A DNA stretch of 64,000 bases from Candidatus Puniceispirillum marinum IMCC1322 (GTDB taxonomy: Bacteria > Pseudomonadota > Alphaproteobacteria > Puniceispirillales > Puniceispirillaceae): contig NC_014010.1 of assembly GCF_000024465.1 (NCBI RefSeq), forward strand, positions 1,860,001 through 1,924,000. The letters run 5' to 3'. The notes beneath the pieces are model-generated. The model saw only the letters and a program-made list of their open reading frames with translations. It searched no databases and was not told the origin of the DNA. The position numbers and the translations under genes are program-made. Within the stretch, counting starts at the first letter, position 1; every line of letters begins with the position of its first letter. Of this stretch, positions 870 through 16,172 are shown in pieces.

Positions 870-2009
870 TTAGTTTACACCTTTTGCGTTTAACCGACTG
901 ACAATCTCATTTGCCGTAAAGTCTCCAGCCGTGATTAAAGCATTACGAACAGCTGTGTTATCTTCGGGCCCCCCCGCTTGGGCTTGTACCGGGCCTATTG
1001 CCGCAACTTTCTTTGGAAGACGCTTGGCCAAGCTAAGTACCTCACCATTTATTGAAACAACAACATTATAGCCTTCAACACCTGACGCGCGTGGCTGGTT
1101 GATATCAATTGTACCAATAGCCAGATATTCCACCTCACAATCGCGTGCTGCTGTAATCACAGATTTACGTGTTTCACGAGACATTTTCCCATTGAGCGCC
1201 AATTCTTCTTCGACAATTTCTAGTTCTTCACCACCGCATTCATTGACAAGGTCCACATAGTCGATGGGCTCATAATTTGCGAGCGACAATACCTCTGCCA
1301 TTTTGGTACTAAAATCAGCAGAAGGCACCACATCATATTCACGTATGACTGAGGTGGTTTCGGTGCCACGATTCACAGTTTTGCCTGAACTCTGGCTACT
1401 GTTTTTAGACTCGCTTAGCGTGCTTTCCACGGCAGTTGTATCATCTTGAGCTTCTACAATTTCAACGCTTTTCAGTGAACGAGAACTAGAATTTTTTTCA
1501 ACATCGGCATCATAGGTCGTAGTGTCACCACCGGCTGTATAAGTTGCTTGTTTTGCGGCGAATATCCAAACCATGTAAGCACCATCACCATCACCACCAC
1601 CTGATGCTTGAGTAAACAAGCCATCAACTAATGACTGATTTATTGTTAACAGCGCTTCGGCATTCACTATTTTAGATTTCTTATCAACTTTGTGACTAAG
1701 CTCTTTTCCAAGAATGTAATTATCCAAATTACCCAGGATTTCCGACCCACGCGCTAGATATTGTTGCATTCGCCCAGCTTCCATGCAGGTGCTGATATAT
1801 TTATTCCAAGCGGCGAGTAAAGCTTGTTGGCGGGCTTCTTCTATGTCTTCAGGTTTTGGTTTTTTTGAAAAATTACTTTTGGGCGTGTAAACAATTGAAG
1901 CCGATCCATAGAAAGGCTGATCTGAAAAGCAGCTTGCTAGGGTCTGATGACTAAAAAAACTTGTTAAACCAAAAAATAAAACACTAGCTAAAACAAGCGA
2001 ACGTAACAT
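870..2009 (-). CDS. Exported protein, FlgT/CsgG-like architecture
   Basis: This 379-residue protein has a clear signal peptide (hydrophobic residues 4-22, likely cleavage after LAS near residue 26). An N-terminal helix-rich segment (EEARQQALLAAWNKYIS) recalls the repeated N-domain of FlgT/LPP20-like proteins. The middle (about 165-225) is Ser/Thr-rich and probably a flexible linker. The C-terminal 150 residues form an alternating alpha/beta pattern (VEYLAIGTIDIN) like the CsgG/LpoB family. Cysteines flank the mature N-terminus and the C-domain and could form disulfides. It is first in a minus-strand pair with the partial gene ending at the window edge, and is divergent from the plus-strand envelope operon across a 391-base AT-rich spacer. 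No specific family is recognised with certainty. Confidence 0.75.
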   Translation of the reverse strand: MLRSLVLASVLFFGLTSFFSHQTLASCFSDQPFYGSASIVYTPKSNFSKKPKPEDIEEARQQALLAAWNKYISTCMEAGRMQQYLARGSEILGNLDNYILGKELSHKVDKKSKIVNAEALLTINQSLVDGLFTQASGGGDGDGAYMVWIFAAKQATYTAGGDTTTYDADVEKNSSSRSLKSVEIVEAQDDTTAVESTLSESKNSSQSSGKTVNRGTETTSVIREYDVVPSADFSTKMAEVLSLANYEPIDYVDLVNECGGEELEIVEEELALNGKMSRETRKSVITAARDCEVEYLAIGTIDINQPRASGVEGYNVVVSINGEVLSLAKRLPKKVAAIGPVQAQAGGPEDNTAVRNALITAGDFTANEIVSRLNAKGVN

Positions 2010-2400: not shown

Positions 2401-3330
2401 ATGCTAAAGCAGGGATGGACGATGATACGCAATCTTATTTTCAGAATAATCAAAGTGACTAGCCTTGTGTTGACCTTTTTAACCTTGTCTCTAGCAGGTC
2501 TATGCGTTTTAGCGCCCTCCATATCAGCTGAGGAATACGACCAGGTTATTGTACTTAGCAAGATGATGAGCGTTAAAGAGGATGACAAAAACCAAGCTAT
2601 TACCGATGCACTTCCAATTGCGCTATCGATGGCATTAACTGAAATTGGAATAACACCACTAGACGCAAGGTTTGCTAGTGCCACATTTTTAGAAGATGAC
2701 CAAACATCACCAGAGATGATCGAGGCACTACAACGTTACGATGCTGAGCGCACTGGGCGGCTACTTATTTTAGAAGTGTCTGTCACACCCGATATGTCCA
2801 ACCCAGAATTAATGACCCCAATTGTTTCGGTAATCGATGTTAAATCGGGTCTTATTCCAGCTATTGTTTCGACACTTCCAGTTTTAGTTCCGCTCGATCA
2901 CGCTAGCATAAATGCAGCCGCTACAGCCCTTGCCCGTTCTGTTGCTATGCGAATGGATGAGAATGGATATATTGTCAAACCAAGCAAAATCAAACCTTGG
3001 GGAGGTGTGGCGAGAAAAGTACGCCTTGCGCTTGAAGGTTTTAACGGATGTGAACAGCAAGTGCTTTTGACAATCATGGAAGAAGAGTTTCCCGGGTTTC
3101 TGGGAATAGAGTTACAAAAAGCGCCCAATCCAGACTATTCGATTTATAATTATCACACCACTGCAACTAAACAACGACTCAATAAGTGGGTACGGCTTTT
3201 GATGGCCGAAAATCAGGCCAGCATGTCCAGTAGCACTTCTGAAAAGGTGCGGCTTTATGCACAAAAGGAAGGTTTGCGTCTCCAAAAAATTAAAAACACT
3301 GTAATTTTCAGGGCTGAATGTGGTGGTTGA
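2401..3330 (+). CDS. Exported protein, tandem paralog 1 (CsgG/DUF2066-like layout)
   Basis: The protein has up to 309 residues and a signal peptide or anchor (hydrophobic residues about 12-40, ending ISAEE). An internal ATG at 2422 is preceded by CAGGGA and may be the real start. Residues 45-175 form an alpha/beta domain with an N-terminal helix ITDALPIALSMALTEIG. The C-terminal 100 residues contain EEEFPGFLGI followed by YHTTATKQRLNKWVRLLM. The same C-terminal pattern recurs in the next gene (MRNEFPGFVDI and YHTSADLQKLGTWVDISL), so the two are tandem paralogs. The C-domain resembles the small beta-alpha units of DUF2066/FlgT-like envelope proteins. It heads a plus-strand operon that continues to 9299. 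Function unknown. Confidence 0.8.
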   Translation: MLKQGWTMIRNLIFRIIKVTSLVLTFLTLSLAGLCVLAPSISAEEYDQVIVLSKMMSVKEDDKNQAITDALPIALSMALTEIGITPLDARFASATFLEDDQTSPEMIEALQRYDAERTGRLLILEVSVTPDMSNPELMTPIVSVIDVKSGLIPAIVSTLPVLVPLDHASINAAATALARSVAMRMDENGYIVKPSKIKPWGGVARKVRLALEGFNGCEQQVLLTIMEEEFPGFLGIELQKAPNPDYSIYNYHTTATKQRLNKWVRLLMAENQASMSSSTSEKVRLYAQKEGLRLQKIKNTVIFRAECGG

Positions 3331-3383
3331 GGTTGCTGGCGCTAAATTACAGAAGCGGTTACATGAAAGAGGACAAAATTAAA

Positions 3384-4292
3384 ATGATTTCTAAATCAAA
3401 AAAAATCAGAAACACTGTTTCTCTTTATCGATATATCTGCGTTACTTTGCTGTCCTTGTTTTTACTCCCTGGATTGAGCTATACGGCTAATGCAGGTGAA
3501 CAAATTTTCGTGTTCTCCACGAAGAATGCCAATCAAAATACCCAGACACGAGCGTTGACAACTATTAAATCACGTCTCAGCCGTGCAGGCTTTTTTGTTA
3601 GAGATAATGTATCCCTTCTCAGCTCTATAGGCATTGTCGCAGACAGTCCAAAGGCGTTTGTCCTGCGGCGTAGCGAAACCCTGGCACAACTCGTTGGCAA
3701 TTCCACCCTGATATTTGTTGACAGCACGATCATCGATGCCGAGCTTTCCCGTGAATTGCGGATGAGTGCCGAACTCTACAGCACCGCAAGCAATAGTTTT
3801 TTGACAAGTTGGTCAGTACCAAACACTATCTTGACTATTCCTAACGATTGTAGTCAGGCATGTTCTAATGGCCTTCTAGCTGATGAGGCAGAAAGAATGG
3901 CTGACACGCTCGGAGCAAGCCTTGTGCAATTATTACAACGACCAACGGGCGCAAGTGATCTTAATGGGAATACCATTGCAATTCTGGATGTTGAAATAAT
4001 CGATTTTACCAATGCTGAAGTGATGCAGTTGGTTGATCTTATGCGCAACGAATTTCCGGGCTTTGTTGATATCACGCGCGTGCAATCGTCAGGGCCACGA
4101 TACCGTATGCTTTATCATACGTCTGCCGATCTTCAAAAACTTGGTACATGGGTAGATATATCACTTGAAGAAATTGGCCTAAAGATCGATACTGATGTAC
4201 AGCGCATTATCACCGAAAAACGTATCGATATTCGTCGTATCGACCCGGCCACAAGCAAGGGTAGTACTGGCAACACGCTCAAATATAACTAA
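3384..4292 (+). CDS. Exported protein, tandem paralog 2
   Basis: The start at 3384 gives 302 residues with a standard signal peptide (charged MISKSKKIRN, hydrophobic core, cleavage near ANAGE). A GAGG lies upstream, though spacing is long. In-frame starts at 3363 and 3318 (overlapping the previous gene) are also possible. The mature N-domain has an alpha/beta pattern with RLSRAGFFVRDN and TLIFVDSTIID. The C-domain carries the FPGF...YHTSADLQKLG pattern shared with the preceding gene. A Cys pair (DCSQACS) sits near residue 190. Being adjacent and homologous, the two probably act in the same complex, as a heteromer or as successive ring components. No known family name can be given. Confidence 0.78.
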   Translation: MISKSKKIRNTVSLYRYICVTLLSLFLLPGLSYTANAGEQIFVFSTKNANQNTQTRALTTIKSRLSRAGFFVRDNVSLLSSIGIVADSPKAFVLRRSETLAQLVGNSTLIFVDSTIIDAELSRELRMSAELYSTASNSFLTSWSVPNTILTIPNDCSQACSNGLLADEAERMADTLGASLVQLLQRPTGASDLNGNTIAILDVEIIDFTNAEVMQLVDLMRNEFPGFVDITRVQSSGPRYRMLYHTSADLQKLGTWVDISLEEIGLKIDTDVQRIITEKRIDIRRIDPATSKGSTGNTLKYN

Positions 4293-4398
4293 ACGCTAAA
4301 TAGTTAATTTAATGGCAAGTATCGCCGCTCCATTGACGCCAAAATTAGTCCAAAATTTTTCATATATCTCTTGAACATATAATTTAAGGAGAGTGAAT

Positions 4399-4800
4399 GT
4401 GATTGATGATGGTGCCAACCCACTTGCCGAGGTTGCTTTAGCCCTTGCAATGGCCTTTTTCAGCTTAATGGTCTTGACGTTGTTTGCCGTTGTGCATCAA
4501 CCAGAAGCGACAATTGTAGATAGTATGGTCGTACAAAAGTCCGTTAGTGAGGCTGTATCGGAACCGCCACAACTTGTTATTCTTCATGCAAACGGGTTGT
4601 TTGATGAGATGTTGCGTCCAATCGATGCTGATGGTTTGCCGGTTGGAAAGCCAATAACTCTGGGCGTGCAGGCAGACTTAACCATGTCGGAAATGATGCG
4701 CTTTAAGCAAGCCCATCCGTCACTAGACCTTAAAATTAGTGAATTGACGCCTGAATGGTCTGACCTTCTCAACGCTAAATTAGGTGGCTCAGATGAATAG
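4399..4800 (+). CDS. One-TM ExbD/MotB-like inner-membrane protein
   Basis: This small protein (about 133 residues) has a short acidic N-terminus, a single TM helix at about residues 10-33 and a periplasmic tail. The pattern is that of ExbD/TolR/MotB stators, and the tail ends in an alpha/beta stretch (LTMSEMMRFKQAHPSLDL) like the TolR/ExbD periplasmic domain. The GTG at 4399 is preceded at seven bases by AAGGAG; the in-frame GTG at 4393 overlaps that site. The conserved membrane Asp of ExbD/MotB is not obvious in the helix, but Asp and Glu precede it (DDGANPLAE). The likely partner is the MotA/TolQ/ExbB-like protein at 11136-11720 in the facing operon. The family call is inference from topology. 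Confidence 0.6.
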   Translation: MIDDGANPLAEVALALAMAFFSLMVLTLFAVVHQPEATIVDSMVVQKSVSEAVSEPPQLVILHANGLFDEMLRPIDADGLPVGKPITLGVQADLTMSEMMRFKQAHPSLDLKISELTPEWSDLLNAKLGGSDE

Positions 4801-5680
4801 AAACTTGTTTTGGTGCGAGCCAAAAATTCTACAAAGTATGAATAGGGCACCTGCCAGTCTCGCCTATTATTTCATTCTGATTTTTGGGGTTGCTATTGGC
4901 TTGACGGCCATGGCATCCGCCAGTCTGGCTGCGGATCCAAAAAATGCAGTGAAAAGCATTATCATTCAAGAAGCTGAAAAATCAGCGTATGTTTCAGCTA
5001 GTCTGGCTTTGGCTGTTGCCCATGTTGAGTCGCGTTTTCAGTCAGACGCTCTAAGTCCAAAAGGTGCCATAGGCGTGATGCAAATTATGCCGCGAACAGG
5101 GCGAACTGTATTTGGCCTTACGTCTCAGCAGCTATATGACTCCAAAATCAATATCCGGGCTGGTATAAAGTTTCTTGACCAGCTGATCAAACAGTATGAT
5201 GGCCGAATTGATCTAGCTCTATCGCATTATAATGGTGGATCAGCAGTATCAAAAAATGGAAAGCGACAGATCATACCCTATACAAAAGGTTACGTTCTAA
5301 AGGTACTGGATGCAGCCAAAACATATGCAGATCAGGACATGTCCTCTCAAAGGCAGGAGATAAGACACGTAGCTGATAAACCAGCTTATATTTCCCCCAA
5401 TATCTCTCAGAGCATGGCTATACAGAGCGCTGACGTGAACAGAACTATCAATGATATTGATTTCTGGCTACGAACCGCCGAGACAGCACGTTACCGTCAA
5501 ACTTTGCCACATTATGCATTATCGCCAAGTAGGCGGCTTATCAAGCAGATGGAGAATAACCGCAAGAATTTCCGAAACCGGTTGAGGCCTAAAGGGTTAA
5601 CGCGTTACGATGATGAAATCGAGAAGATTTGTATGTTTCGTAAAGTTGCCCAGGCGCGGGTTAAGTGGGAGTGTATTTGA
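4793..5680 (+). CDS. Exported lytic transglycosylase, SLT domain
   Basis: This is a peptidoglycan lytic transglycosylase, cleaving the MurNAc-GlcNAc bond to give 1,6-anhydromuropeptides. From the ATG at 4793 (295 aa, AGGTGG upstream) a hydrophobic segment at residues 24-46 ends in ASLAA. An in-frame ATG at 4838 would give a more classical signal peptide. The SLT domain spans about residues 55-170, with catalytic Glu79 in the motif HVESRF, then GAIGVMQIMP and the ALSHYNGG motif. The C-terminal 120 residues are basic and not recognised. It starts inside the stop region of the ExbD-like gene and is followed by a TGATG overlap. Such enzymes commonly open the murein for trans-envelope machines, which fits this operon. 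Confidence 0.92.
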   Translation: MNRNLFWCEPKILQSMNRAPASLAYYFILIFGVAIGLTAMASASLAADPKNAVKSIIIQEAEKSAYVSASLALAVAHVESRFQSDALSPKGAIGVMQIMPRTGRTVFGLTSQQLYDSKINIRAGIKFLDQLIKQYDGRIDLALSHYNGGSAVSKNGKRQIIPYTKGYVLKVLDAAKTYADQDMSSQRQEIRHVADKPAYISPNISQSMAIQSADVNRTINDIDFWLRTAETARYRQTLPHYALSPSRRLIKQMENNRKNFRNRLRPKGLTRYDDEIEKICMFRKVAQARVKWECI

Positions 5681-7410
5681 TGTTTGATCCAGTGGGAATT
5701 CTGAGATCATGGCCAGAGTTCACCTTGGAACCGCCCTCCGAGTACCTTATTAATTGTTTTAGGTGCATTGGTGATGCGGTGACCGCCGCGGGTCGACCTA
5801 TCCATGACAGATCAACTGTGATCAACCTGACAACATCCATCGCTAGCCGGTCTTATGGTCCTGAACTCTACCGTGCTGTTCATCTGCTTGCCGCCTTAGC
5901 TACAACTGAAACTTCAATTGACCAGCTACTCTTACCAGAAAGCCCAATAACTGGATCTAGAGTGATAGCGCTATTACAAAACGGTAAAGAAGCTGACGGA
6001 TTGGTCATTGAGACGCATCTGTTGTGTTTTGGCATTCACGGCAATAGCGGCGAACAGATGAAAATCAGTGCGCGCCAGTTACCTGCCGCAGTTGCATTAA
6101 TCGAATTTCTAATTGAGTCTCTTGGCTTTGAAGTAATCTATCAAGCATATGAGAAATTGAGCCAAAATTTGGATAGCGCAACAATTAGTGCCGTCACCAA
6201 AAAATTATCTGCAGCTCTATATCAGTTTTTAGGCGAGCATCTGCCAAGTGCTAGTAATCGGCAAATGGTGCAATTGCTGTCAAATTATATATCCAACGCG
6301 CAAAAAGGTATCACCTCAATTAATCCTGAGGATGTAACAGATGAGCTTATTTATGATTTTTGGTGTGCGCATGCCCATGATGACAGTGTATCCTTCCGCC
6401 TCTTTTCCACCGCCGCACAGGCATGGGTGACTTACAGAAACGCTTTGAACTTAGCCTCCACGGATGCATTTTCACTGCATGTTTCAATAGATCAAATGCA
6501 GGAAGATGGCCAAATCGATCAAGTTCACCATCATCAATCACAAAGTCACATGGACGATGAAGATTATCCCAAATCTGGTGCGTCGAGCCTCGCTGAAATT
6601 GTTCTCGACATCAATACACCGTCGCAATGGCTTCATGACTTGGTTTCTCCACCTTGTGACAACATCAAACTTTTTACCAAAGTTGAACAAGATTATATCG
6701 CCTTTCCTCTAATGGCAGGTTCAGCGGCATCGGCCTTGCTTTTGACATGCTTGCGGGTTGCCGTGTTCAGCCCGTTACAGAATAAGATTGTACAGACAAA
6801 ACGGAGCAAGAGTAATAAGGACGGCACTAGAGAAGGTGACGATACTAGCCCTTTCGAAAAGGTCACAGACGACGCATATTCAGACATTATTAAGCAATGG
6901 AAAGAGATGGTTGCTGTTGCCTCTGGGTTGCGTGATACCGCTTATTACAGATTATGGGAGGCTAAAGATCCCCAGTTTTTTACTTATTTTGTAGATGCAG
7001 GAACCGAAGATGAACGTCATATACTTAGCGAAATTAGCCTAGAGCAATCTGAAAAGATGGCTGATTCAGCAATGATAGGAAACTACGCTGAGATGATAGC
7101 CAATGCAGTATTTACAACATTGGAGACAATGCCGGCATCACACCTGCTTTGTGCCAAAAAGTCCAAAATGAAGGAAATAGCCCATCGATACCGACGCAAA
7201 GGCCTGGTGCCAATTCATTCAACGGATAACGCCATATATAAAGACTGGCTTAATGCATTGTTGATTGGTGGTGAGCGTTTGGGCAAAATACACAATTTTT
7301 TGCGAGACCTATCGAGCCTGGCCGATAGCAAAATAGCGCAGTTGCAAATCAACTTCAAACAAGACAAACAGAATTTTAGGAACCAGATGAGGTCCCTATA
7401 TGAGGTATGA
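5680..7410 (+). CDS. Unknown 576-aa protein with one TM and His/Asp-rich linker
   Basis: Not recognised. The start ATG overlaps the upstream stop (TGATG) and has GGGAG at suitable distance. Residues 1-280 are helical and soluble-looking. Residues about 283-300 form a His/Gln/Asp-rich linker (HHHQSQSHMDDED). A single hydrophobic segment at about 340-362 (LMAGSAASALLLTCLRVAVF) is probably a TM helix. The C-terminal 200 residues are helical and charged, ending in a coiled-coil-like stretch. No nucleotide-binding or catalytic motif was seen. It is translationally coupled to the lytic transglycosylase and lies three bases before the next gene, so it belongs to the envelope apparatus. The histidine cluster could bind metal; that is speculation. 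Confidence 0.75.
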   Translation: MFDPVGILRSWPEFTLEPPSEYLINCFRCIGDAVTAAGRPIHDRSTVINLTTSIASRSYGPELYRAVHLLAALATTETSIDQLLLPESPITGSRVIALLQNGKEADGLVIETHLLCFGIHGNSGEQMKISARQLPAAVALIEFLIESLGFEVIYQAYEKLSQNLDSATISAVTKKLSAALYQFLGEHLPSASNRQMVQLLSNYISNAQKGITSINPEDVTDELIYDFWCAHAHDDSVSFRLFSTAAQAWVTYRNALNLASTDAFSLHVSIDQMQEDGQIDQVHHHQSQSHMDDEDYPKSGASSLAEIVLDINTPSQWLHDLVSPPCDNIKLFTKVEQDYIAFPLMAGSAASALLLTCLRVAVFSPLQNKIVQTKRSKSNKDGTREGDDTSPFEKVTDDAYSDIIKQWKEMVAVASGLRDTAYYRLWEAKDPQFFTYFVDAGTEDERHILSEISLEQSEKMADSAMIGNYAEMIANAVFTTLETMPASHLLCAKKSKMKEIAHRYRRKGLVPIHSTDNAIYKDWLNALLIGGERLGKIHNFLRDLSSLADSKIAQLQINFKQDKQNFRNQMRSLYEV

Positions 7411-7413
7411 TCA

Positions 7414-7983
7414 ATGACATATGGCAATGAGACGAACCCTGACCAAAAGAAAATTGAAGCTGCTTTCGAGATGCTTGTTTCAGCGCAAAATGCAGTTAGC
7501 CATATGATGGCACATAATAAGGTGCGTGATCATATTTCTATGCGCGACTTGCTTCGTATCGCTAAAGGGCCAAAGAGTGAGGCGGATCATGCGTTGTTAT
7601 TGCGCGTCAATGATGACTTCATGGCGAGACGCCAATTAAGGGTCATTTTACAAAGCCAATCCCTTGCCTCACAGCCGCAACAAGCTGCTGCTGCCAGCAC
7701 TCGTAAAGATGCAATACAATGGCGTTCTGGGAAAGCATTTGACCTAAATTTGATCGCCTCTTCAAAAAATGACGGGTTGTTCTATCTGCAACTGAAACTA
7801 AAAGACAGTGAAGATATGGCGCGTATTTCCAAAGCCGAAGTCCTGTTTGCCGAAAGTTCTGGACAGTTTTTTTCGCTTCCGCTTCCAAAAATCATGGATG
7901 GCATAGCGCAACTCATGATAAAGCATGGCCACCCAATGTTGGACGCATTTCATGATCCGGAGGCGGAGTTTTTCATACGGTGA
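7414..7983 (+). CDS. Unknown 189-aa cytoplasmic protein
   Basis: Not recognised. The protein has no signal peptide or TM. Residues 1-85 are helical (KKIEAAFEMLVSAQNAVSHM). A Gln/Ala-rich linker (SQPQQAAAAS) follows at about 88-98. The C-terminal 90 residues look like a small alpha/beta domain (KAFDLNLIASS, LFYLQLKLKDS). It begins three bases after the 576-aa protein, and its stop overlaps the GTG start of the Lon-like membrane protein by four bases. Tight coupling on both sides suggests it forms a complex with one or both neighbours, perhaps as a cytoplasmic adaptor. Confidence 0.72.
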   Translation: MTYGNETNPDQKKIEAAFEMLVSAQNAVSHMMAHNKVRDHISMRDLLRIAKGPKSEADHALLLRVNDDFMARRQLRVILQSQSLASQPQQAAAASTRKDAIQWRSGKAFDLNLIASSKNDGLFYLQLKLKDSEDMARISKAEVLFAESSGQFFSLPLPKIMDGIAQLMIKHGHPMLDAFHDPEAEFFIR

Positions 7984-9299
7984 ATTTGCACAAGCTTATT
8001 ATTCCCACGACTCGGCACGCTGTTCAGCTTCTTTCAATCACGATAGAAGATCCGAAAATAAAATCTGTGGTCTGTTTGAATGACAGTTTTCAGGCGTTAC
8101 CAATCAGTGCTGAATATGATCAATTCGTCCGCCGACCAACTGGAATTATTGAAAAATTACTAGGCCCAGCCGCCTATCGAATTGATGTTAGCGCTCCAAT
8201 CACCCAAGGCGATAGCTGGCAACTCGGCCTATGTCTTGCGCATATTCTTCATCATCATGAAATGTTTACTGGCATTCATGGTGGAGATGGTGATCTGGTC
8301 ATATGGGCAACTGGCGCCGTAGATTCCAAATTCAGAATTAATCCGGTTGATCATGTCGCAGCCAAAATTGCGGCATCACGGGATCTTCTTGAAAAAGAGA
8401 TCTTAGATGGAAAAAAACTTGTTTTAATTACTGCCCATGAAAATCTATCTACCCTACGTGAGCATATTCCAGATGATTGGAATGCGTATGGTGTAACTTC
8501 TATTGCTGATGCCTGCGCCGCAATTGGCATCGACATGCCAATGGATTCCTTATCAAAAGCATCCCCGACAGCATCCCCAACAGGAGCTGTAAAACCAAAG
8601 CGCCGAAGTCAGACGACAATTTATCTTATGGGTGTGCTGGCGGCCGCAATCCTTTTAGTAGGTGTTAACATACCCTTTCAATCGCTACGTGATAGCTATC
8701 GATATGAGGCAGAGGGAGATTTGCGCGCCCTGCGTATGGAAATGCGAAAAGTTAGCCGACAAAAAAATTGGGTTGCCACCAATGCTTACTATTTTTTTGA
8801 GGTTTTCTATCTGCTGAAAAAATCGAGACAGCTAGAACAGTCTTTAAAAATCGCTTTTCAGGTTTTGGAAGACGGGACAAATGACCCGCTATGTGACTCT
8901 TCAAATACCATGGCTGTAAATAGTGGCAATTTGCCGTCTCTCCCAGATCAGGGCTGCACTGTTAAATTTGAGGTAACAAGCAATGCAGAAACCAATGTAC
9001 GAATATGGCTTGCGCTGATCAGCCACAAAGAAGCAACTGAACCGCTAATTATGATGAAACATGGCGCCGACTTAAAACCTGGCCAGCGATTTGTTACGCC
9101 ACCGATAACCGTCCATAATGATACCACTCGGCTAGTTACTGCGATTTCTGACCGATCTGACAAAGCATGGCTCAAATGGCTAGAAAATTTGCTCAAGGCT
9201 ACCTCAGTTGAACGAAAAGAGTTAGAAATTGATCGGCTAACATCAACCGGAATTGGTGTTTTTCAAACAAGTTGGCAGCCTTATCTCGAATTAGATTGA
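7980..9299 (+). CDS. Membrane protein with Lon (S16)-like domain and periplasmic beta domain
   Basis: This 439-aa protein starts at GTG 7980, overlapping the previous stop. Residues about 65-205 match the layout of the Lon protease proteolytic domain: QGDSWQLGLCLA aligns with the Lon Ser motif (Ser79), WATGAVDSKFRINPV with the TGE/ALDxxGRVxPVGG strand, HVAAKIAAS with the Lon EKxxAA motif (Lys129), and KKLVLITAHENL with the VxxPxxN strand. A basic linker leads to one TM helix (about 212-232). The periplasmic part (250-439) has a helical segment, then a beta-rich domain (CTVKFEVTSNAETNVRIWL). A Ser-Lys dyad looks present, but no AAA module accompanies it. The fold assignment is mine by eye. A degenerate, non-proteolytic version is possible. 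Confidence 0.65.
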   Translation: MNLHKLIIPTTRHAVQLLSITIEDPKIKSVVCLNDSFQALPISAEYDQFVRRPTGIIEKLLGPAAYRIDVSAPITQGDSWQLGLCLAHILHHHEMFTGIHGGDGDLVIWATGAVDSKFRINPVDHVAAKIAASRDLLEKEILDGKKLVLITAHENLSTLREHIPDDWNAYGVTSIADACAAIGIDMPMDSLSKASPTASPTGAVKPKRRSQTTIYLMGVLAAAILLVGVNIPFQSLRDSYRYEAEGDLRALRMEMRKVSRQKNWVATNAYYFFEVFYLLKKSRQLEQSLKIAFQVLEDGTNDPLCDSSNTMAVNSGNLPSLPDQGCTVKFEVTSNAETNVRIWLALISHKEATEPLIMMKHGADLKPGQRFVTPPITVHNDTTRLVTAISDRSDKAWLKWLENLLKATSVERKELEIDRLTSTGIGVFQTSWQPYLELD

Positions 9300-9306
9300 T
9301 AGTCAT

Positions 9307-10464
9307 CTAGCTACATTGGCCATTATAAAGTCTGATCCGACCAGTAAGAGGTTGGCCATTATGTGTAACCTGATCAAGAAACAAACCATCATGAGCTAGA
9401 AGATATTCTGCTTTGATCTGGCCACTTATGTTCTGGTGACGCATGTTCTTTTTATTCTGGGTCATATTGCGTAATCGAGCCAAAAGTCTGATGTCGGTAT
9501 TCTTTCTAAATATCCTAATAAATTTCCCGCCTTTAATGTTATGACGCAAGCCAGCCAACAAATTTACCTCTTGAGCCGTAATCGGTTGTTCAAACGAGCG
9601 TAACAGGGGTGAATGTATTTCTCTGTTAAACCGACGGCTTGCCTGACCAGAGGGGACAGCAACCTGTCCTTTGTGATCAATATGCCCGACAATCATTCCA
9701 AGACATTGTGTTAGTGTATGATAGATCTGCCTGTGTGAAGATTGATTTGCTGGCCAGAGAAACTCCAAGGAAGGTGCTTCCTCTCCCATATCAATTTGCC
9801 GGCGTGCAATAGCCATATCATCAGAGGAGAGGTTCACTTGTATCGTCGATGGTTTCTGCACCGCCATTGATTTATTCACTAATGGCGCTTCAGCGGGGAG
9901 AGTGGCTGGTATTTTGGTTTTACGCAGCGGCTGAATTTTTGAAGTTTCCCTTTTGCTTTTTGCAGAATTCTTTGTGGAAGTTATCACGGGGGAAGGTATT
10001 AGGGTTGCTGGTGAAACTGTCGGTGATGTTGCTGGTGAAATTACCGGGCTAGCCAATACAGCGACTATCGGTTTAGCCCTTTGCTTTTCTGTTAACAATG
10101 CGCTTTTGAGAAGCGTGGAACCAGCCAAATTCTTCTTTTTCATCTGTTCACCAGCAAGCTTTTGTACGATAGGTTCGGTTTGTGCGGCGTTGGATGGGTT
10201 CGGTGAATCCACTTCCTCCCAGAGTGTCTGAGGTGGTTTTGGTAAGGATGCAAGCTGCAAAATTGGCTTTTTTGTTGGTTTACCTTGCGCATCTGCGGTG
10301 TTCAGATTCAGTTTAATATCAGGCGTTTTAAGCGTTTTTTTGATCGGTTCTGCAATCGTTTGGTCTGATGAAACTAGGGGATGGTCTGACAGTGCCAAAG
10401 ATGTGACAACTGCCAGACTCAGGAGGAACCCTAGATTAATCCAAATAGACAAACGAGACCCCAT
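9307..10464 (-). CDS. Membrane-anchored protein with Pro-rich linker, TonB-like layout
   Basis: This 385-aa protein has an N-terminal TM anchor (residues 8-26), a long Pro/Ser/Lys-rich linker including repeated SPV/SPA/SPT units (about 135-165), and a globular C-terminal domain (about 215-385) that is basic and holds two or three Cys (TQCLGMIVGH, LYNGQCS). Anchor, extended Pro-rich arm and C-terminal domain is the arrangement of TonB/TolA-type energy-transducing proteins, but the C-domain has no recognisable TonB motif. It begins one base after the preceding anchored-linker gene and is last in a seven-gene minus-strand operon. It converges with the Lon-like gene, leaving 7 bases between them. 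Confidence 0.7.
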   Translation of the reverse strand: MGSRLSIWINLGFLLSLAVVTSLALSDHPLVSSDQTIAEPIKKTLKTPDIKLNLNTADAQGKPTKKPILQLASLPKPPQTLWEEVDSPNPSNAAQTEPIVQKLAGEQMKKKNLAGSTLLKSALLTEKQRAKPIVAVLASPVISPATSPTVSPATLIPSPVITSTKNSAKSKRETSKIQPLRKTKIPATLPAEAPLVNKSMAVQKPSTIQVNLSSDDMAIARRQIDMGEEAPSLEFLWPANQSSHRQIYHTLTQCLGMIVGHIDHKGQVAVPSGQASRRFNREIHSPLLRSFEQPITAQEVNLLAGLRHNIKGGKFIRIFRKNTDIRLLARLRNMTQNKKNMRHQNISGQIKAEYLLAHDGLFLDQVTHNGQPLTGRIRLYNGQCS

Positions 10465-10465
10465 A

Positions 10466-11125
10466 TCATATGCCCGCCTTTTCCAAATAAAGCATATTAA
10501 GCTGTTGAATTATTTGCAACATATCAGCTGCACGCTCGGCGCGTGTCATGAAAGTTGGTGTTTGTTCAACAGGGTTTTCTTCAGCCACCACCTCACTAAC
10601 GTCATCATTTGAAAGGATGTTTTCAGGCTGTTCGCGTTTTTCGAATGCCTTAAAGGCCATCGCTATTTCCTTGTCATTCATCTGAACGGATGCTTTAGTG
10701 CTGGCTGCCGTTTTTGTCGCGGTTTTTACGTCAGTAGTTTCTTCAGGTTTTAGCTCAGATTTGGGCGTGGTTTTTACTTCACGTTTAACCGTCTGACTCT
10801 CATTTAAAGCGTCCAAGATCATCTCTTTGACTTTGTTTACATCAAGTTCAATGTTTTGTTTCGGCATATCCGCACTGATGATTTTTTCATGGGGTTCTGC
10901 CGGGTCAAGGGTTTCAAGTTTGTCACTTGTTGCCTTTGCGACGGCTTTGGCAAAAGTCTTGCCAGATTCAACAACACCCTGATCAGCTATTTGTGTAGTA
11001 ACTTCAGGCTTGCTCCATACATCCAATTTCACAGCTGCCCATTGGGCGAATGACTGGTTTGGTTCGCTAGACAACAAATAGCCAAGCGCAGCCAGTACGG
11101 TGATGTTAAAGATTAAATATCGCAT
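10466..11125 (-). CDS. Membrane-anchored or exported linker protein
   Basis: From the ATG at 11125 (AAGGAA six bases upstream) the product is 219 aa. Hydrophobic residues 3-18 form a signal peptide or uncleaved anchor (YLIFNITVLAALGYLLSS). The rest is charged, rich in Lys/Glu/Thr/Val, low in hydrophobics and probably extended. The C-terminal 35 residues (RAERAADMLQIIQQLN) are predicted helical and could be a docking helix. It sits between the ExbB-like channel gene (10 bases upstream) and the TonB-like gene (1 base downstream), which suggests a stator or linker subunit of the same machine. No family recognised. Confidence 0.7.
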   Translation of the reverse strand: MRYLIFNITVLAALGYLLSSEPNQSFAQWAAVKLDVWSKPEVTTQIADQGVVESGKTFAKAVAKATSDKLETLDPAEPHEKIISADMPKQNIELDVNKVKEMILDALNESQTVKREVKTTPKSELKPEETTDVKTATKTAASTKASVQMNDKEIAMAFKAFEKREQPENILSNDDVSEVVAEENPVEQTPTFMTRAERAADMLQIIQQLNMLYLEKAGI

Positions 11126-11135
11126 GAGAATTTCC

Positions 11136-11720
11136 TTAGACAATAGGGTTTGCAATAAGTGGATTTGTTGATCCACATTTGTGGTTTTCCAGTTTGTTTT
11201 CTGAGACCACCAATAGTGATGCATTGGCAACAATCAACACAGTTCGCAATGCCGCAGATAGAGGCAGGCCAATGACTGATGTCATAAAGGCAAGACTAAA
11301 TTGGCTGGTAAGATTGGCGATAACCTGATTTATATTTTCTGGTGTTAAGCCGCCATCTGAAAGTTGGCCAATTCCCAGGCTAATACCTAGCAAAGTAAAT
11401 GTTAGCGCAAGGGTGGCGATGCCATTACAAGATTGCTGGCCAGCCTGAAGCCATTTCAAACGTCGACTGTCCCGTTCGGCAACATTCTGGATTGATGTTG
11501 TTTCATACAGTTTCACCAGTGCTAACAAGCTTGCAAAAACCAAAGACCCAAGAAGCAAGAGAAATGGCAAGCCTAAGACGTTGAGTGCCCAGCGAAGGAT
11601 ATTGGCCGAAGTGTTTCCACTGAGAATGACACTGGCTGCCAGGCTGATAACCACTACCCCTAGCATCAGACTAAGTGCTTTCAGTCCATGAGTGACTTTA
11701 ACTATGGGCATCAGTCTCAT
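11136..11720 (-). CDS. MotA/TolQ/ExbB-type proton channel subunit
   Basis: This 194-aa protein has four predicted TM helices at about 14-34, 42-70, 98-120 and 140-172. The last two contain the family signature: FTLLGISLGIGQL followed by an amphipathic loop and the GLPLSAALR segment, matching the MotA/TolQ/ExbB pattern LLGTVxGL...GLxxAIP. The large cytoplasmic loop of ExbB is short here (about 72-96). In this family such proteins form a pentameric proton or sodium channel around a dimer of one-TM partners and convert ion-motive force into work across the envelope. Its start overlaps the previous stop (ATGA). Candidate partners are the ExbD-like protein at 4399 and the two anchored proteins downstream. 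Confidence 0.8.
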   Translation of the reverse strand: MRLMPIVKVTHGLKALSLMLGVVVISLAASVILSGNTSANILRWALNVLGLPFLLLLGSLVFASLLALVKLYETTSIQNVAERDSRRLKWLQAGQQSCNGIATLALTFTLLGISLGIGQLSDGGLTPENINQVIANLTSQFSLAFMTSVIGLPLSAALRTVLIVANASLLVVSENKLENHKCGSTNPLIANPIV

Positions 11721-12100
11721 CTACTTACCCGCGCATTCATTAGATTGCTTGTTGTCAGCCCAATTGTTTCCAACCAATGGACAGCTAAAGGACGCTGGCT
11801 TTCGCTTGCCGCATGCACCAAAAATGATAATTCATAATGCTTAAACGCCTTCAATACGATTGCTTTCCGGCTGGTTTGCAGTGACTTGTCATTAAGTGCA
11901 ATTCGTTCCATGTCAGCCATCCGTCTTTTGGTAAAGCTTGTGCGCTCCCATCGTTCCTGTGTGGACATGGCCGGATCAAGAATTTGCGCCACGGCAACGG
12001 CACGCTCACGCTCCATGTTTTCGATAGATCCTGCTTGGGCTGAGGTGATGGCACCAGTACTTCCAACCAGCATCATGAATATTAGAAATTTAGCTTTCAT
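11717..12100 (-). CDS. Small exported protein
   Basis: The ATG at 12100 has GGAGAC upstream and gives 127 aa with a good signal peptide (MKAKFLIFMMLVGSTG, cleavage after AQA near 23). The mature part is about 100 residues, all helical and Arg/Glu-rich (MERERAVAVAQILDPAM, RWERTSFTKRRMADMERIAL), with no Cys. It is coupled to the ExbB-like gene by an ATGA overlap. Function is unknown. A periplasmic helical accessory subunit of the ExbB-like machine is inferred from position. Confidence 0.72.
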   Translation of the reverse strand: MKAKFLIFMMLVGSTGAITSAQAGSIENMERERAVAVAQILDPAMSTQERWERTSFTKRRMADMERIALNDKSLQTSRKAIVLKAFKHYELSFLVHAASESQRPLAVHWLETIGLTTSNLMNARVSR

Positions 12101-12169
12101 AATTGTCTCCAATATGTTGTGAAATGTCATTCGACTTGAGATTTTGTGAATTTTTGAAGTGGCTAAGCA

Positions 12170-13051
12170 TCAATATGCAACAAACATTCGCACATTATGT
12201 TTTGGTGAAGTGAAGGTTTGCCCTAAGGTATCCGCTTGATCCTGCCATGCTAGTTCGGCGACTTTCTCAGAAAAGCTCATGGCATCAAGTGTAAGCAATT
12301 TCGCCATATGCCCAATGACTTCTTCTTCCATTTTCAGTATGGCTAGCTCAAATTCAGCGTCCATTACCATCTGCGCCAGCTGGTCTGTTTTGGACATTGG
12401 TTGACCATCGTTAATCTGCTGTTGATTGGCTGGATGATTTGCAATTGCAGCGCGTAGATCTTCGACTGCAGAACGATTTTCGGCGTAGTTTTCACCAAAT
12501 TTGCTCTCTGGTAGATTAGAGGTAAAGAAAAGTTCATCCCGCAATTTGGTCTCAACCGCGTTAGAGCGATCACGTGCCTCATCAATCGCCAACCTAAGTT
12601 GCCGGGTATCGCGGTTGCGCACTTCTTCACGTTTTGATTGTTGCATTAATCGTTCGTAAAGCCGCCGTTTTGTATCCAATTGCTGGCGCTTAAGCTGGAG
12701 TTGGTTACCCATGGTTTCCAAATAATTTCGTTTGCCAACGATGATCTGGTGTTCAACCTCAAGGGCTTCTTCGCCTTCATAAAGATGCTGGTTATCTTGA
12801 AGGTTTGAAATATTGGCAATTTCAGCCCCAATTTGCTCATCGAGGGTGCTCATATCATTCGCCAGCAAGGAATTAGCAAAATCCTGTTCGATAGCACGCT
12901 CCAGATGTTTGGTAGGCAACATTAGGATTTTCTCGCTGATCTGTGGTTGCCAGCCATTACTGGCGAACGAAATTGATGGACTTGTGAATAAAACGAAGTT
13001 ACTCAACAAAGTGGTAATCAAAAGCCAACGTGGTTTCATTGCTACAATCAT
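12170..13051 (-). CDS. Exported coiled-coil protein
   Basis: This 293-aa protein starts at ATG 13051 (GGAGAT upstream) with a signal peptide of about 30 residues ending SFAS. Residues about 50-200 carry heptad-like patterns rich in Leu, Gln, Glu and Arg (NQLQLKRQQLDTKRRLYERL), so a long periplasmic coiled coil is expected, similar in style to TolC-adaptor hairpins or CpoB/YbgF coiled coils. The C-terminal 100 residues are helical. It could be a spacer or bridge through the periplasm. No family is identified. Confidence 0.75.
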   Translation of the reverse strand: MIVAMKPRWLLITTLLSNFVLFTSPSISFASNGWQPQISEKILMLPTKHLERAIEQDFANSLLANDMSTLDEQIGAEIANISNLQDNQHLYEGEEALEVEHQIIVGKRNYLETMGNQLQLKRQQLDTKRRLYERLMQQSKREEVRNRDTRQLRLAIDEARDRSNAVETKLRDELFFTSNLPESKFGENYAENRSAVEDLRAAIANHPANQQQINDGQPMSKTDQLAQMVMDAEFELAILKMEEEVIGHMAKLLTLDAMSFSEKVAELAWQDQADTLGQTFTSPKHNVRMFVAY

Positions 13052-13074
13052 CTTTATCTCCTACTCTCAAAATT

Positions 13075-13620
13075 TTACTTCTGTTGCCAATACCAAGACC
13101 GACGGATTTCGTCTTTGACGATTGGCCTGGCATTTAATGTTGATAGGGCAAATTGTTCTGGCCGCTCATGCTGAAATAGCAACGCATGCATCGTGTCAGT
13201 AAAGGAGCTGCCGTCAGTAAATATCAAATCACTTGACCCAAATCGCGTTTGAAAACCTCCAAGTGCAAGACGTGATTGCGCAACGTCGCCTCCTTTGAGA
13301 TAGTTCTGCACAGCTAGAGCCGTGACTTGCATTTGCTCACGTTTATCAATCAACATTTCAGAGCCGCCAAGTGCGGTTACGCAGCTCATAAGCATGTCGG
13401 CGCTGCTTAGATAGAGAGCCTGGTCACGGCCAGCAGATGCCGCTATGTCTTGGGCTTTGCCTTCAGTTGCACAATCTTTAAACGCGATTGCTGCCTGCAT
13501 ATCGATTGCCCGGTCAACCACACTTGCAGTTGGGGTTTTATTCTGAGCAGTTGTCACGGGGCCACATGCTGTCAAAAGGGCAATACCCGTGATACTGGCT
13601 AAAAAGGTAAGTGATTTCAT
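13075..13620 (-). CDS. Outer-membrane lipoprotein, unknown
   Basis: From the ATG at 13620 (AAGGAACTGACA upstream) the product is 181 aa with a lipobox LLTAC; Cys18 would be lipidated. The residue after Cys is Gly, not Asp, consistent with transport to the outer membrane. The mature protein is mostly helical, with two further Cys (FKDCATEG, LMSCVTALGG) that may pair. Helical repeats resembling TPR-like packing are possible but not clear. It lies between the glycine-zipper protein and the coiled-coil protein in the minus-strand envelope operon. Confidence 0.8.
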   Translation of the reverse strand: MKSLTFLASITGIALLTACGPVTTAQNKTPTASVVDRAIDMQAAIAFKDCATEGKAQDIAASAGRDQALYLSSADMLMSCVTALGGSEMLIDKREQMQVTALAVQNYLKGGDVAQSRLALGGFQTRFGSSDLIFTDGSSFTDTMHALLFQHERPEQFALSTLNARPIVKDEIRRSWYWQQK

Positions 13621-13660
13621 TGTCAGTTCCTTGTTGAAATTGATAAAATATCGCCTCAAT

Positions 13661-14158
13661 TTATTGCACCAAACTAAAGTTGGTTGACACATTTAGGCGA
13701 ACCCGTTCGTTCCTCCGATAGGGACGATTAGAAGTGAATTGAAGTTGTTTTCCACCAGTGCGCACATGTATCATGTAGTGGCTTGGATATTGCTCTGTGC
13801 GGCTGGTATAGTAGGTCTCATTAAAGCACTGTTGGCGGTTATTCGAATTTGTTGCCTGTAGCACTCCAGCCACAGCGCCAAGGGTTCCGGCACCATCGCG
13901 ATCACTTAATTTGTTGCCAATTGCTGAACCAATAAGTCCACCAACAACAATTTGACCAAGTGAAGTGTTTTGCGAACTGTGTGGTTTATTACAACGAATT
14001 AATGATTTTGGTTCCTGCACAGTTCGCGTTGCAAAAATTGCTTCGGAACGAGTTACATAACCTTCCTGAATTTCTGAAAAATGCTGAGCACAAGCAGCAT
14101 CTACACCAATATTTGCAATTAGTAATCCTATGCCTAACTTGCTCATCAAATATTTCAT
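13661..14158 (-). CDS. Glycine-zipper outer-membrane protein (17-kDa antigen/SlyB-like)
   Basis: This 165-aa protein has a signal peptide ending ACAQ near residue 25. Residues 68-99 are a glycine-zipper 2TM segment (GGLIGSAIGNKL, then DGAGTLGAVAGVL), the Rickettsia 17-kDa surface antigen/SlyB type domain that inserts in the outer membrane. The C-terminal 55 residues (Tyr/Arg-rich, MIHVRTGGKQLQFTS) look like the beta domain found after such zippers. It is the first gene of the seven-gene minus-strand operon running to 9307, so the operon apparently encodes outer-membrane, periplasmic and inner-membrane parts in order. Confidence 0.82.
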   Translation of the reverse strand: MKYLMSKLGIGLLIANIGVDAACAQHFSEIQEGYVTRSEAIFATRTVQEPKSLIRCNKPHSSQNTSLGQIVVGGLIGSAIGNKLSDRDGAGTLGAVAGVLQATNSNNRQQCFNETYYTSRTEQYPSHYMIHVRTGGKQLQFTSNRPYRRNERVRLNVSTNFSLVQ

Positions 14159-14577: not shown

Positions 14578-15225
14578 ATGTCGAATTTTATGTCCAACAC
14601 TATTCATGTCACTTTATTTTCACTCGTAATTTTATCTTCTCCATCTCTGGCAATTGAAAAACTAAATGCTGGTGATGTTGTCAGATCAGCGTGTGAAAAA
14701 ACCCCTATTTATTCCAAACCCTCAGCCTTTAGCATACCTTCAGGTAACTTATCATTTGGAGATAAAATTACTATTGCAGGCCTTGAAGGACAGTTTGAGT
14801 TACCAGACTCTGATTACTCATCAAAAAAAGCGCTTGAACGTAAAGAGCGAAATGCTGCTGGCGAAAATAGTACGCCTAAAGCAGTTAAAAAAGAAGACTA
14901 TGTCAGGTTTACATTTGCAAAAATCGGCGAGTCAAAATTTATTTCAACCTCATGTTTGGTTAGCGAAGAAAATTTTGCCGAACAGACAATAGAACGTTCA
15001 GAGGAGAAAGTTGCAGCTTTGGCATCTGGAAAAGCAAAACGCAATTTTTCTGAAGATGAAGATGAGGGAGACCTGCGTGCTGTTAGGGGGGCTGCTGGAG
15101 GTGCCAAAGGCGGCAAGGCCAATTTTGAGCTTGCTGACTCTCTCATTAGTCAATCTCAAGGCGTATATAGCTATCAATTGTTGATGGACTTTAGAAAAGC
15201 TGGCGGTCTAGGAGAATTCAAATGA
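14578..15225 (+). CDS. Exported protein, possible SH3-like N-domain
   Basis: This 215-aa protein has a signal peptide ending SLAIE near residue 26. Residues 30-75 (VVRSACEKTPIYSKPS, GDKITIAG) resemble a bacterial SH3-like domain with one Cys. A second Cys (STSCLVSEE) lies near residue 127 and may pair with the first. The C-terminal half is charged, with a Gly/Ala/Lys-rich patch (RGAAGGAKGGKANFEL). Its stop overlaps the start of the M48 metalloprotease by four bases, so the two are translationally coupled. No specific function. Confidence 0.72.
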   Translation: MSNFMSNTIHVTLFSLVILSSPSLAIEKLNAGDVVRSACEKTPIYSKPSAFSIPSGNLSFGDKITIAGLEGQFELPDSDYSSKKALERKERNAAGENSTPKAVKKEDYVRFTFAKIGESKFISTSCLVSEENFAEQTIERSEEKVAALASGKAKRNFSEDEDEGDLRAVRGAAGGAKGGKANFELADSLISQSQGVYSYQLLMDFRKAGGLGEFK

Positions 15226-16172
15226 GAAATTATATTTTAACACTTTTCTTAAGCATTCTTTTAGCTGGAACAACTATTTCTGCTGAAGCTCAGCTTAGTG
15301 GACTGCTTGGCGGTAAAGATAAAAAAAATCCGATAGGCAATCTGCTTGGTGGAGGTGATGGAGATGACAAGGCAGGTACTGGCAAAGGTTTAGGGGGTTT
15401 GCTAGATGGTTTAAGTGGAAAAAACACCTCGGGTAAATCAAACAGTTCTGGTGCATTAGGTACCATTGGCAATGTTTTTGAATCTGCAAAAAATACTAAC
15501 CTTGGGCCTGTTGGACGATATGTGCTTGGCCGTGATCTAGCCGCTCGGATGCTTGGGAACTACAAAGTCTCAAAGTCAGACGATATGCGAGTTACTTATT
15601 TGCAAAATCTAGTCGCCAATCTTCTCATTGCCAGCCGTTTGGGAAGTAATTTTAAAGATCCAACAGTTGTGCTTTTGGATTCGGAAATCATCAACGCTTT
15701 TGCGGCTCCAGGTGGGTTTGTCTTTGTATCCACAGGCATGCTTGATTTTGTTGAAAATGAAGATGAGTTAGCATTTGTTCTGGCACATGAAATTTCTCAT
15801 ATCGAAATGGATCACGGGCTAAATGCAATTAAACAAAATGAAGGCTCTAAGCTTTTTCAAAGTGCCACCGAAGATATGGGTGCTGGTGGGCTTTTTGATG
15901 ATTTGCTGGCGTTTGGAGAGAATGGATTTGGAAAGGATTTGGAAGCAGAAGCCGATATCAGGGGGGCACAAATTGCAAGTTCCCTAGGTTATGATTGGAA
16001 AGCTGGAGTTAGTGTTATTCAAAGACTTGATAGCATAACCAGTAGAAAGCATGCCACAGGCTATCCCAAAGATAGAGCTGCCAATCTCAAAAAGGGTTCA
16101 AACGCATATTCTGTTAAGGCGGATGATATGACCGCAAGAACCGCTAGATTTAACAAAGTAATGGGTCAGTGA
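15222..16172 (+). CDS. Exported M48-family zinc metalloprotease
   Basis: This 316-aa protein has a signal peptide ending AEAQ near residue 24. It then has an unusual Gly/Lys/Asp-rich low-complexity segment (about 25-85) and an M48 peptidase domain. The zinc motif HEISH is at 189-193, and the third ligand is in EAEAD (Glu241, Asp245). The domain opening (LQNLVANLLIASRL and AFAAPGGFVFVSTGML) is typical of BepA/YfgC and LoiP. Known members degrade misassembled outer-membrane proteins in the periplasm. There is no TM and no TPR domain in cis, but a separate TPR protein follows immediately, so the BepA-like protease-TPR pair may here be split over two genes. Confidence 0.9.
   Translation: MRNYILTLFLSILLAGTTISAEAQLSGLLGGKDKKNPIGNLLGGGDGDDKAGTGKGLGGLLDGLSGKNTSGKSNSSGALGTIGNVFESAKNTNLGPVGRYVLGRDLAARMLGNYKVSKSDDMRVTYLQNLVANLLIASRLGSNFKDPTVVLLDSEIINAFAAPGGFVFVSTGMLDFVENEDELAFVLAHEISHIEMDHGLNAIKQNEGSKLFQSATEDMGAGGLFDDLLAFGENGFGKDLEAEADIRGAQIASSLGYDWKAGVSVIQRLDSITSRKHATGYPKDRAANLKKGSNAYSVKADDMTARTARFNKVMGQ

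Follow-up and report, generated by a model that had tools for sequence, protein, structure and literature searches.

Several proteins carry a peptidase domain of the Lon family, which we take to be family S16 of MEROPS, in settings comparable with that of the gene considered here, G, an open reading frame (ORF) within a stretch of 64,000 nucleotides from Candidatus Puniceispirillum marinum IMCC1322. As described in the respective reports, CalpL combines an N-terminal Lon domain with a C-terminal sensor and cleaves its partner CalpT (PMC11417357), YlbL of Bacillus subtilis is a membrane-tethered Lon peptidase domain with the Ser-Lys dyad S234/K279 (PMC6051672), and MtaLonC, a Lon-like protease devoid of ATPase activity, degrades proteins that are unfolded and does not degrade well-folded ones (PMC3391209). 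In RadA and ComM, the Lon domain has been called a common hexamerization module (PMC11612176). The stretch, hereafter the window, covers positions 1,860,001-1,924,000 of the one contig of 2,753,527 bases that makes up the source genome. An original prediction, drawn from the letters of the window, had described G as a Lon-like domain tethered to the inner membrane, fused to a periplasmic domain and placed in ExbB-type surroundings. By sequence comparison and structure prediction, G is a real and conserved Lon-type peptidase domain in a new architecture, for which catalysis is plausible.

G ends a tightly packed run of genes on the + strand, C, D, E, F and G (4393 to 9299), and its start overlaps the stop of the upstream gene F (7414-7983) by 4 bp. 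Its features are the following.

7980..9299, + strand: G, 439 aa, GTG start; Lon-like domain, transmembrane (TM) helix and C-terminal beta-rich domain; predicted inner-membrane peptidase.
7980..8531, + strand: Lon P-domain of G, residues 1-184, delimited with VIA-align and hhalign.
8214..8216, + strand: Ser79 of G, predicted nucleophile, in GDSWQLG.
8310..8315, + strand: Thr111-Gly112 of G, pairing with a Lon Thr-Gly.
8364..8366, + strand: Lys129 of G, predicted general base, in HVAAKIAAS.
8610..8669, + strand: TM helix, at residues 211-230 of G; the N-terminus is predicted to lie in the cytoplasm.
8844..9275, + strand: C-terminal domain of G, beta-rich, residues 289-432; predicted to lie in the periplasm; contains C305 and C326, a conserved Cys pair.

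The ORF and both of its motifs are present as had been claimed. Scanned against Pfam at E<=1, G matched zero families, and among 11 members of its family no Pfam family was matched by more than one; NCBIfam returned a single match at chance level and a sequence scan of the PDB nothing meaningful. These Pfam scans of the window protein and the 11 members gave no AAA match either, in agreement with the predicted lack of an AAA module, and the AlphaFold2 model accounts for the full chain by the P-domain, the TM helix, helices and the C-terminal domain. A separate Lon frame of 807 aa is found elsewhere in the same genome. A scan of viral_contigs with the G of the window as only query, which reaches close relatives only, confirmed no match.

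Because these sequence scans matched no family, the G family was compared with Lon at the level of profiles. The G profile comprised 55 homologs, leaving out four that are partial or divergent (L100, L049, L066 and L067), and the Lon profile 42 P-domains; of 48 fetched loci, these were the ones yielding a frame in which the Lon Ser motif is present. Local alignment with hhalign reached a probability of 92.5 (E 4.8e-7, score 49); global alignment of the same two profiles was far weaker (probability 20.5). On trimmed alignments, the local comparison gave a probability of 89.1, an E of 2.3e-6 and a score of 45, to be set against a maximum of 25.2 among 200 column-shuffled decoys and against 14.5 and 16.2 for two reversed profiles. 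The local alignment sets Ser79 and Lys129 opposite the Ser and the Lys of Lon, Thr111-Gly112 opposite a Lon Thr-Gly and Asn155 opposite an Asn.

The structure of G was modelled with AlphaFold2 from 35 sequences, that of the window and those of 34 of the 37 loci at which G was found, L094, L100 and L104 being left out. The mean predicted local distance difference test score (pLDDT) is 87.3, with blocks over residues 1-180 at 84-98, and the predicted template-modelling score is 0.51, a low value that we think reflects the free orientation of the two halves of the model. Aligned with VIA-align, residues 2-184 match the P-domain of human mitochondrial Lon (2x36_F) with a Z of 15.2 over 156 residues and a root-mean-square deviation of 2.9, and E. 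coli Lon is matched with a Z of 13.4 (1rr9_A) and 13.7 (3wu6_B). When the first 1000 chains from Foldseek were aligned in the same way, the best 50 were all Lon, RadA or ComM entries. In the ranking of Foldseek itself with the whole model, the leading entries were GH3 glucosidases, with a very low template-modelling score, and beta-sandwich proteins such as PDE6D. Lon was not among its best 50 matches, and it is therefore VIA-align, together with the separate profile test, that carries the claim of a fold. Judged from model and profiles, G carries the Lon P-domain fold together with sequence homology to Lon. The Lon-like fold expected by the original prediction is upheld, while its limits are to be redrawn: placed at residues 65-205, the domain in fact spans residues 1-184.

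Within genome_contigs, G was found at 37 loci, for example in Thalassobaculum litoreum (L099), a Bradyrhizobium (L104) and a Glaciecola (L105), picked by two peptide patterns outside the Ser/Lys region and then confirmed by tblastn. Conservation was assessed on 59 proteins distinct in sequence, from 93 hidden Markov model matches in the fetched loci, several rows being partial. Ser79, Trp80, Gly112 and Lys129 are each present in 59 of 59; position 111 is a Thr in 33 and a Ser in 26, and Asn155 is found in 40 of the 59 rows, with 12 gaps. Pairwise identity of the N-terminal domain averages 38% and falls to 19% at its minimum, and only eight positions of this domain, T10, T11, G55, G77, S79, W80, G112 and K129, are at least 97% identical across the occupied rows. 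Both residues of the dyad are present in 27 of 27 non-duplicate rows from the pattern-picked loci, the patterns themselves excluding the dyad. The original prediction would have fallen with any free variation of Ser79 and Lys129 among orthologs, and none was seen. By profile alignment and fold match, on which the equivalence rests, these two residues occupy the positions of the Lon catalytic dyad.

For the topology, 56 of the 59 proteins had the required length of at least 300 aa (three were too short), and a hydrophobic 19-mer of at least 1.4 was sought between residues 141 and approximately 330. A clear segment was present in 51 of the 56, L016, L017, L018, L034 and L104 falling below the cut. 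The Lys and Arg bias around it places the N-terminus inside in 44 of these 51 proteins and outside in 2, with 5 ties. Beyond residue 250, exactly two Cys occur in 47 of the 49 homologs of at least 400 aa (the exceptions being L103 with 4 and L104 with 9), and C305 and C326 are invariant in the 35-sequence alignment of G. The TM helix followed by a beta-rich periplasmic domain, as first proposed, is supported by the charge bias and the Cys pair. The sequence data thus fit the prediction of a cytoplasmic Lon domain joined to a periplasmic domain that is probably disulfide-bonded.

The gene immediately upstream provides a candidate partner.

7414..7983, + strand: F, 189 aa, two domains, without hydrophobic segment; proposed substrate or partner of G.
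7684..7698, + strand: AAAAS loop of F, residues 91-95, between the two domains; proposed cleavage region.

F lies directly upstream of G in 35 of the 37 loci, the exceptions being L094, where no F was matched, and L104. In two further and distant genomes, G251 and G355 (loci L164 and L165), a relative of F precedes G and no C, D, E, J or H was matched within the 18.5 and 19 kb fetched. Both F matches are faint, that of L164 standing at 3e-4 and that of L165 resting on its position and on a full-sensitivity search run over a set of five sequences. Since these local matches begin near the Ala-Ala motif, they are not independent of it.

The model of F consists of a helical domain (residues 9-82) and a beta domain (103-188) with a loop between them. 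The pLDDT drops to 61 in block 91-100, between blocks of 94 and 92; blocks 1-10 (62) and 31-40 (68) are low as well. In an alignment of 25 rows (the F of the window plus those of 24 of the 35 loci that have it), positions 91-95 are Ala in 22, Ala in 25, Ala in 25, Ser or Ala in 25 and Ser in 23. With the other 11 loci, which were checked separately, the counts over all 35 become Ala 27, Ala 35, Ala 35, Ser or Ala 35 and Ser 29 (Asn 4, Thr 2). Five further F sequences all retain Ala-Ala, with variable flanks. Ala92, Ala93 and Arg104 are the only invariant positions of the 25-row alignment, in which mean column identity is 30%. The simplest reading of such an Ala-Ala-(Ser/Ala) motif, in a predicted interdomain loop encoded next to a peptidase gene, is that of a recognition or cut site, and F would then be the substrate of G, with cleavage at the loop. 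Cleavage after Ala is a property of Ser-Lys enzymes such as birnavirus VP4 and signal peptidase, which is a hint only.

The Lon fold, the conservation of the dyad, the predicted topology, the F-G linkage and the conservation of the motif are all results of the computation. On this basis we propose that G is a membrane-tethered, ATP-independent Lon-type Ser/Lys peptidase which cuts F in its loop when triggered from the envelope, a reading to which we give roughly even chances. The C-terminal beta-rich domain would sense an event in the envelope from the periplasm, perhaps the state of the peptidoglycan, a candidate signal because a lytic transglycosylase is encoded in the operon. The TM helix would relay this signal, an oligomeric or conformational change of G switching on the cytoplasmic peptidase. 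Activated G would cut F in the Ala-Ala-(Ser/Ala) loop and part the helical N-terminal domain from the beta domain, and the cut F would pass the signal on, possibly via E. The cutting of CalpT by the CRISPR protease CalpL offers a precedent for this step. Catalysis by G, the role of F as substrate, the cut site, the trigger and the output are what we infer within this scheme. That G and F together form an undescribed outside-in module, in which a periplasmic sensor, one TM helix and a cytoplasmic Lon peptidase in a single chain act on a dedicated F, seems to us somewhat less than an even bet.

A number of points weigh against this proposal. The loop of F holds an insertion or deletion, residues 96-98 being present in only 5-7 of the 25 rows; because of it, and because block 31-40 is low too, the low pLDDT of the loop need not mean a cut site. 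Conserved loop motifs can also be binding sites. The F matches at L164 and L165 are weak, L094 has no F match, and L104 keeps the dyad in the absence of F and of the cluster. The scan of F against PADLOC matched no model, its sequence search of the PDB returned nothing meaningful, and its best structural matches are weak and of mixed folds. One of these, between the beta domain of F and CalpT10 (8b0u_C, 71 of 76 residues, Z 4.3), was discarded: ranking 15th and tied with unrelated folds of the same Z, it is not significant and is given no weight as homology. It speaks for the proposal that members of the G family match PADLOC models of CARF_LON (4 of 35, best 1e-4), CRISPR-Lon (1 of 35, 0.052) and SAVED_LON (1 of 35, 0.062), along with one unrelated model (1 of 35, 0.07), and against it that all these matches come from other members, the G of the window itself matching no PADLOC model. 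Among the cluster proteins, J and C were not assigned as ExbB and ExbD because profile tests did not beat their decoys. Finally, the Lon-like fold of RadA and ComM, described as a hexamerisation module (PMC11612176), matches the G model with nearly the same Z as Lon does.

The evidence for a peptidase (dyad, profile and fold) would apply in the same way if G acted on another substrate, such as E, an unfolded protein near the membrane or the cytoplasmic tail of one of the membrane proteins that the cluster encodes, with F as an adaptor or inhibitor docking through its Ala-Ala-(Ser/Ala) loop. The preference reported for MtaLonC towards unfolded proteins (PMC3391209) points the same way, and a loop held against the active site could equally be an inhibitor. 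The small-residue motif of F between two folded domains nevertheless suits a linker to be cut, and E is not found where F-G stands alone, so that we regard another substrate as unlikely, though a serious contender. It is more improbable still that the Lon domain of G is a non-cutting oligomerisation or regulatory module. Such a role has been described for the Lon-like domains of RadA and ComM, whose Z to the G model is 13.1-14.5 (PMC11612176), and, because YlbL purified without its TM domain is reported to be inactive in vitro (PMC6051672), the dyad alone is no proof of activity. Against such a role, Ser79 and Lys129 are kept in every homolog, and Thr/Ser111 and Gly112 follow Lon, despite the low mean identity of the domain. 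Damaged copies, with a partial match in genome G059 and an in-frame stop in G433, could suggest a relic or broken protein; since no internal stop interrupts any of the 27 matches of G in the order, nor 18 of the 19 found in the class, and the dyad is kept throughout, we hold this to be very improbable. The proposal of a membrane peptidase that cuts F is the one retained below.

With its own genome counted each time, matches to G occur in 12 of the 61 related genomes, in 26 of the 136 genomes in the order sample and in 18 of the 385 in the class sample. A single genome, G414, carries two different homologs (L062 and L068/L166). The copy of the cluster in G433, apparently the same locus as L100, has both E and the Lon domain of G interrupted by in-frame stops. 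At L104 (9917-11842), Bradyrhizobium sp. CCBAU 51627 encodes an orphan Lon-like protein of 641 aa with the dyad kept; the region after its Lon-like domain looks repetitive by eye, the protein has no clear TM segment, and no cluster genes were matched. At L164 (8002-14061), F-G is followed by an unmatched gene and then by genes for a trypsin-like protein, an OmpA protein and a family-3 glycosidase, so that the pair has a second envelope context there.

In the window, F and G lie within a cluster of envelope genes.

870..2009, - strand: A, 379 aa, cluster protein, exported by eye.
2401..4292, + strand: B1 and B2, adjacent related proteins (1.9e-7 to each other) of no known family, exported by eye.
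4393..4800, + strand: C, single-TM protein with an invariant Glu13 at the start of the TM segment; ExbD-like by eye only.
4784..5680, + strand: D, lytic transglycosylase (Pfam SLT, 8.8e-23).
5665..7410, + strand: E, 581 aa, no Pfam, NCBIfam or PADLOC match; one hydrophobic 19-mer (1.86) at residue 345.
9307..11233, - strand: H and I, two envelope proteins belonging to the cluster; both have a hydrophobic segment at the N-terminus.
11136..11720, - strand: J, 194-aa membrane protein, weakly similar to ZorA/MotA/ExbB/TolQ.
11717..14158, - strand: K, M, N and O, cluster proteins, exported by eye; N lipoprotein-like by eye.

O has a weak glycine-zipper match below its cut-off. The cluster is common to most related loci and, in one direction, also to many loci outside SAR116. 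In the order sample, J was found in 29 genomes (weakly in G062, at 9.5e-4) and together with G in 22; among the genomes of this sample that are at least 90% complete, 12 have G, 11 have J and 11 have both. Some SAR116 relatives have J at a different place on the contig; in G042, for instance, it is approximately 17 kb from G. E tightly co-occurs with G in the class sample (G in 18 genomes, E in 17, both in 16), the exceptions being G251 and G355, with G and without E, and G258, with E and without G, the contig of which ends in F. The overlaps of 22, 11 and 16 genomes were counted by hand from match lists.

The similarity of J to motor proteins comes mainly from ZorA: the PADLOC model of this protein matched 16 of 17 members at E<=0.1 (best 1.6e-5), and the NCBIfam models 8 and 3 of the 17 (best 5.2e-4). 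Unrelated membrane families are matched comparably, namely KwaA in PADLOC (3 of 17, best 1.8e-4) and NhaC in NCBIfam (1 of 17, 2.5e-4), and Pfam DUF4389 is matched by 2 of 17 at 0.0019. Pfam MotA_ExbB gave no match to J, nor Pfam ExbD to the C copies of the window, L092 and L105. Profiles of TolQ, MotA and ExbD were built from close relatives, with 17 of 20, 9 of 9 and 18 of 21 usable loci, and compared with 100 decoys each. With these low-diversity profiles, J scored 11.0 against TolQ (decoys 22.5) and 18.4 against MotA (decoys 19.3), and C scored 11.7 against ExbD (decoy maximum 19.7). A proton-driven motor at the cluster is possible. The ExbB-type surroundings originally proposed are weakly supported, by the likeness of J to ZorA; MotA_ExbB was unmatched and the decoys unbeaten with profiles of low diversity. 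As regards the neighbourhood only, there is a resemblance to Zorya ZorAB, TolQR and ExbBD in the weakly ZorA-like J and in the acidic residue at the TM start of C; a difference is that J and C score below the decoys against the TolQ, MotA and ExbD profiles.

Scans for promoters and terminators gave results at or below chance. Within its copy of the cluster, Glaciecola sp. KUL10 (L105, 3324-7767) encodes a protein kinase-FGE-sulfatase fusion and an FHA-domain protein upstream of E, F and G, and caspase-like (Peptidase_C14) proteins flank the cluster in L090 (10272-13208) and L099 (2301-3710), that of L090 also bearing an FGE-sulfatase domain. Beyond the conserved cluster of the window, the ORF at 15222-16172 carries a HEISH metallopeptidase motif (M48-like by eye) and was unmatched across the stretches fetched for 11 related loci.

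The predicted architecture of G (Lon domain, TM helix and periplasmic domain) is new, and F is a good candidate for its partner. Among the PMC papers searched, no description of G or of its cluster was recognised, and in PMC7159879 the terms Lon, S16, MotA, transglycosylase and periplasm are all absent as whole words. If the proposal holds, a Lon peptidase domain without its ATPase would serve as a membrane signalling protease, with its active site inside the cell and its sensor outside. It would then be the counterpart, based on Lon, to regulated intramembrane proteolysis, and would form part of an uncharacterised envelope machine that SAR116 shares with other Alphaproteobacteria. With a candidate substrate and a cut region named to within five residues, the idea is readily testable, and G-F gives a handle on an uncharacterised envelope gene cluster of marine bacteria.

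Compared with known Lon-type systems, G shares with LonC the Lon P-domain, which in LonC is reported to work without ATP hydrolysis; LonC has a large N-terminal AAA-like part and, as described, no TM segment (PMC3391209), whereas in G the P-domain is N-terminal and followed by a TM helix. The Lon-like domains of RadA and ComM have the same fold as the G model. They are described as parts of DNA helicases (PMC11612176); in G, by contrast, the Lon dyad is retained and no ATPase was matched. LonA and archaeal LonB share with G the fold of the P-domain and the Ser, Lys and Thr-Gly positions; unlike them, G has no AAA+ match in the same chain.

SepM of streptococci is grouped with YlbL, and an assignment of G to this YlbL/SepM type was rejected, since no PDZ domain was matched and the Lon domain is predicted inside. 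YlbL resembles G in being membrane-tethered, in lacking AAA+ and in its Ser-Lys dyad, and one specific substrate has been proposed for it (PMC6051672). The same report describes a PDZ domain in YlbL and a likely site of action outside the cell; in G, Pfam scans found no PDZ match and the charge bias puts the Lon domain in the cytoplasm. The arrangement of G would therefore be the reverse of that proposed for YlbL.

G was not assigned to CalpL either, as no SAVED domain was matched in Pfam scans. The place of SAVED is taken in G by a TM helix and by a domain predicted to be periplasmic; G sits in an envelope cluster, and F showed no relation to CalpT by sequence search. The logic of CalpL, CalpT and CalpS is nevertheless close to that proposed for G and F, with an N-terminal Lon domain, a C-terminal sensor and a cognate protein cut in two (PMC11417357, PMC12751052). 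If our reading is correct, G and F would represent a membrane version of the CalpL-CalpT logic, operating without a nucleotide messenger.

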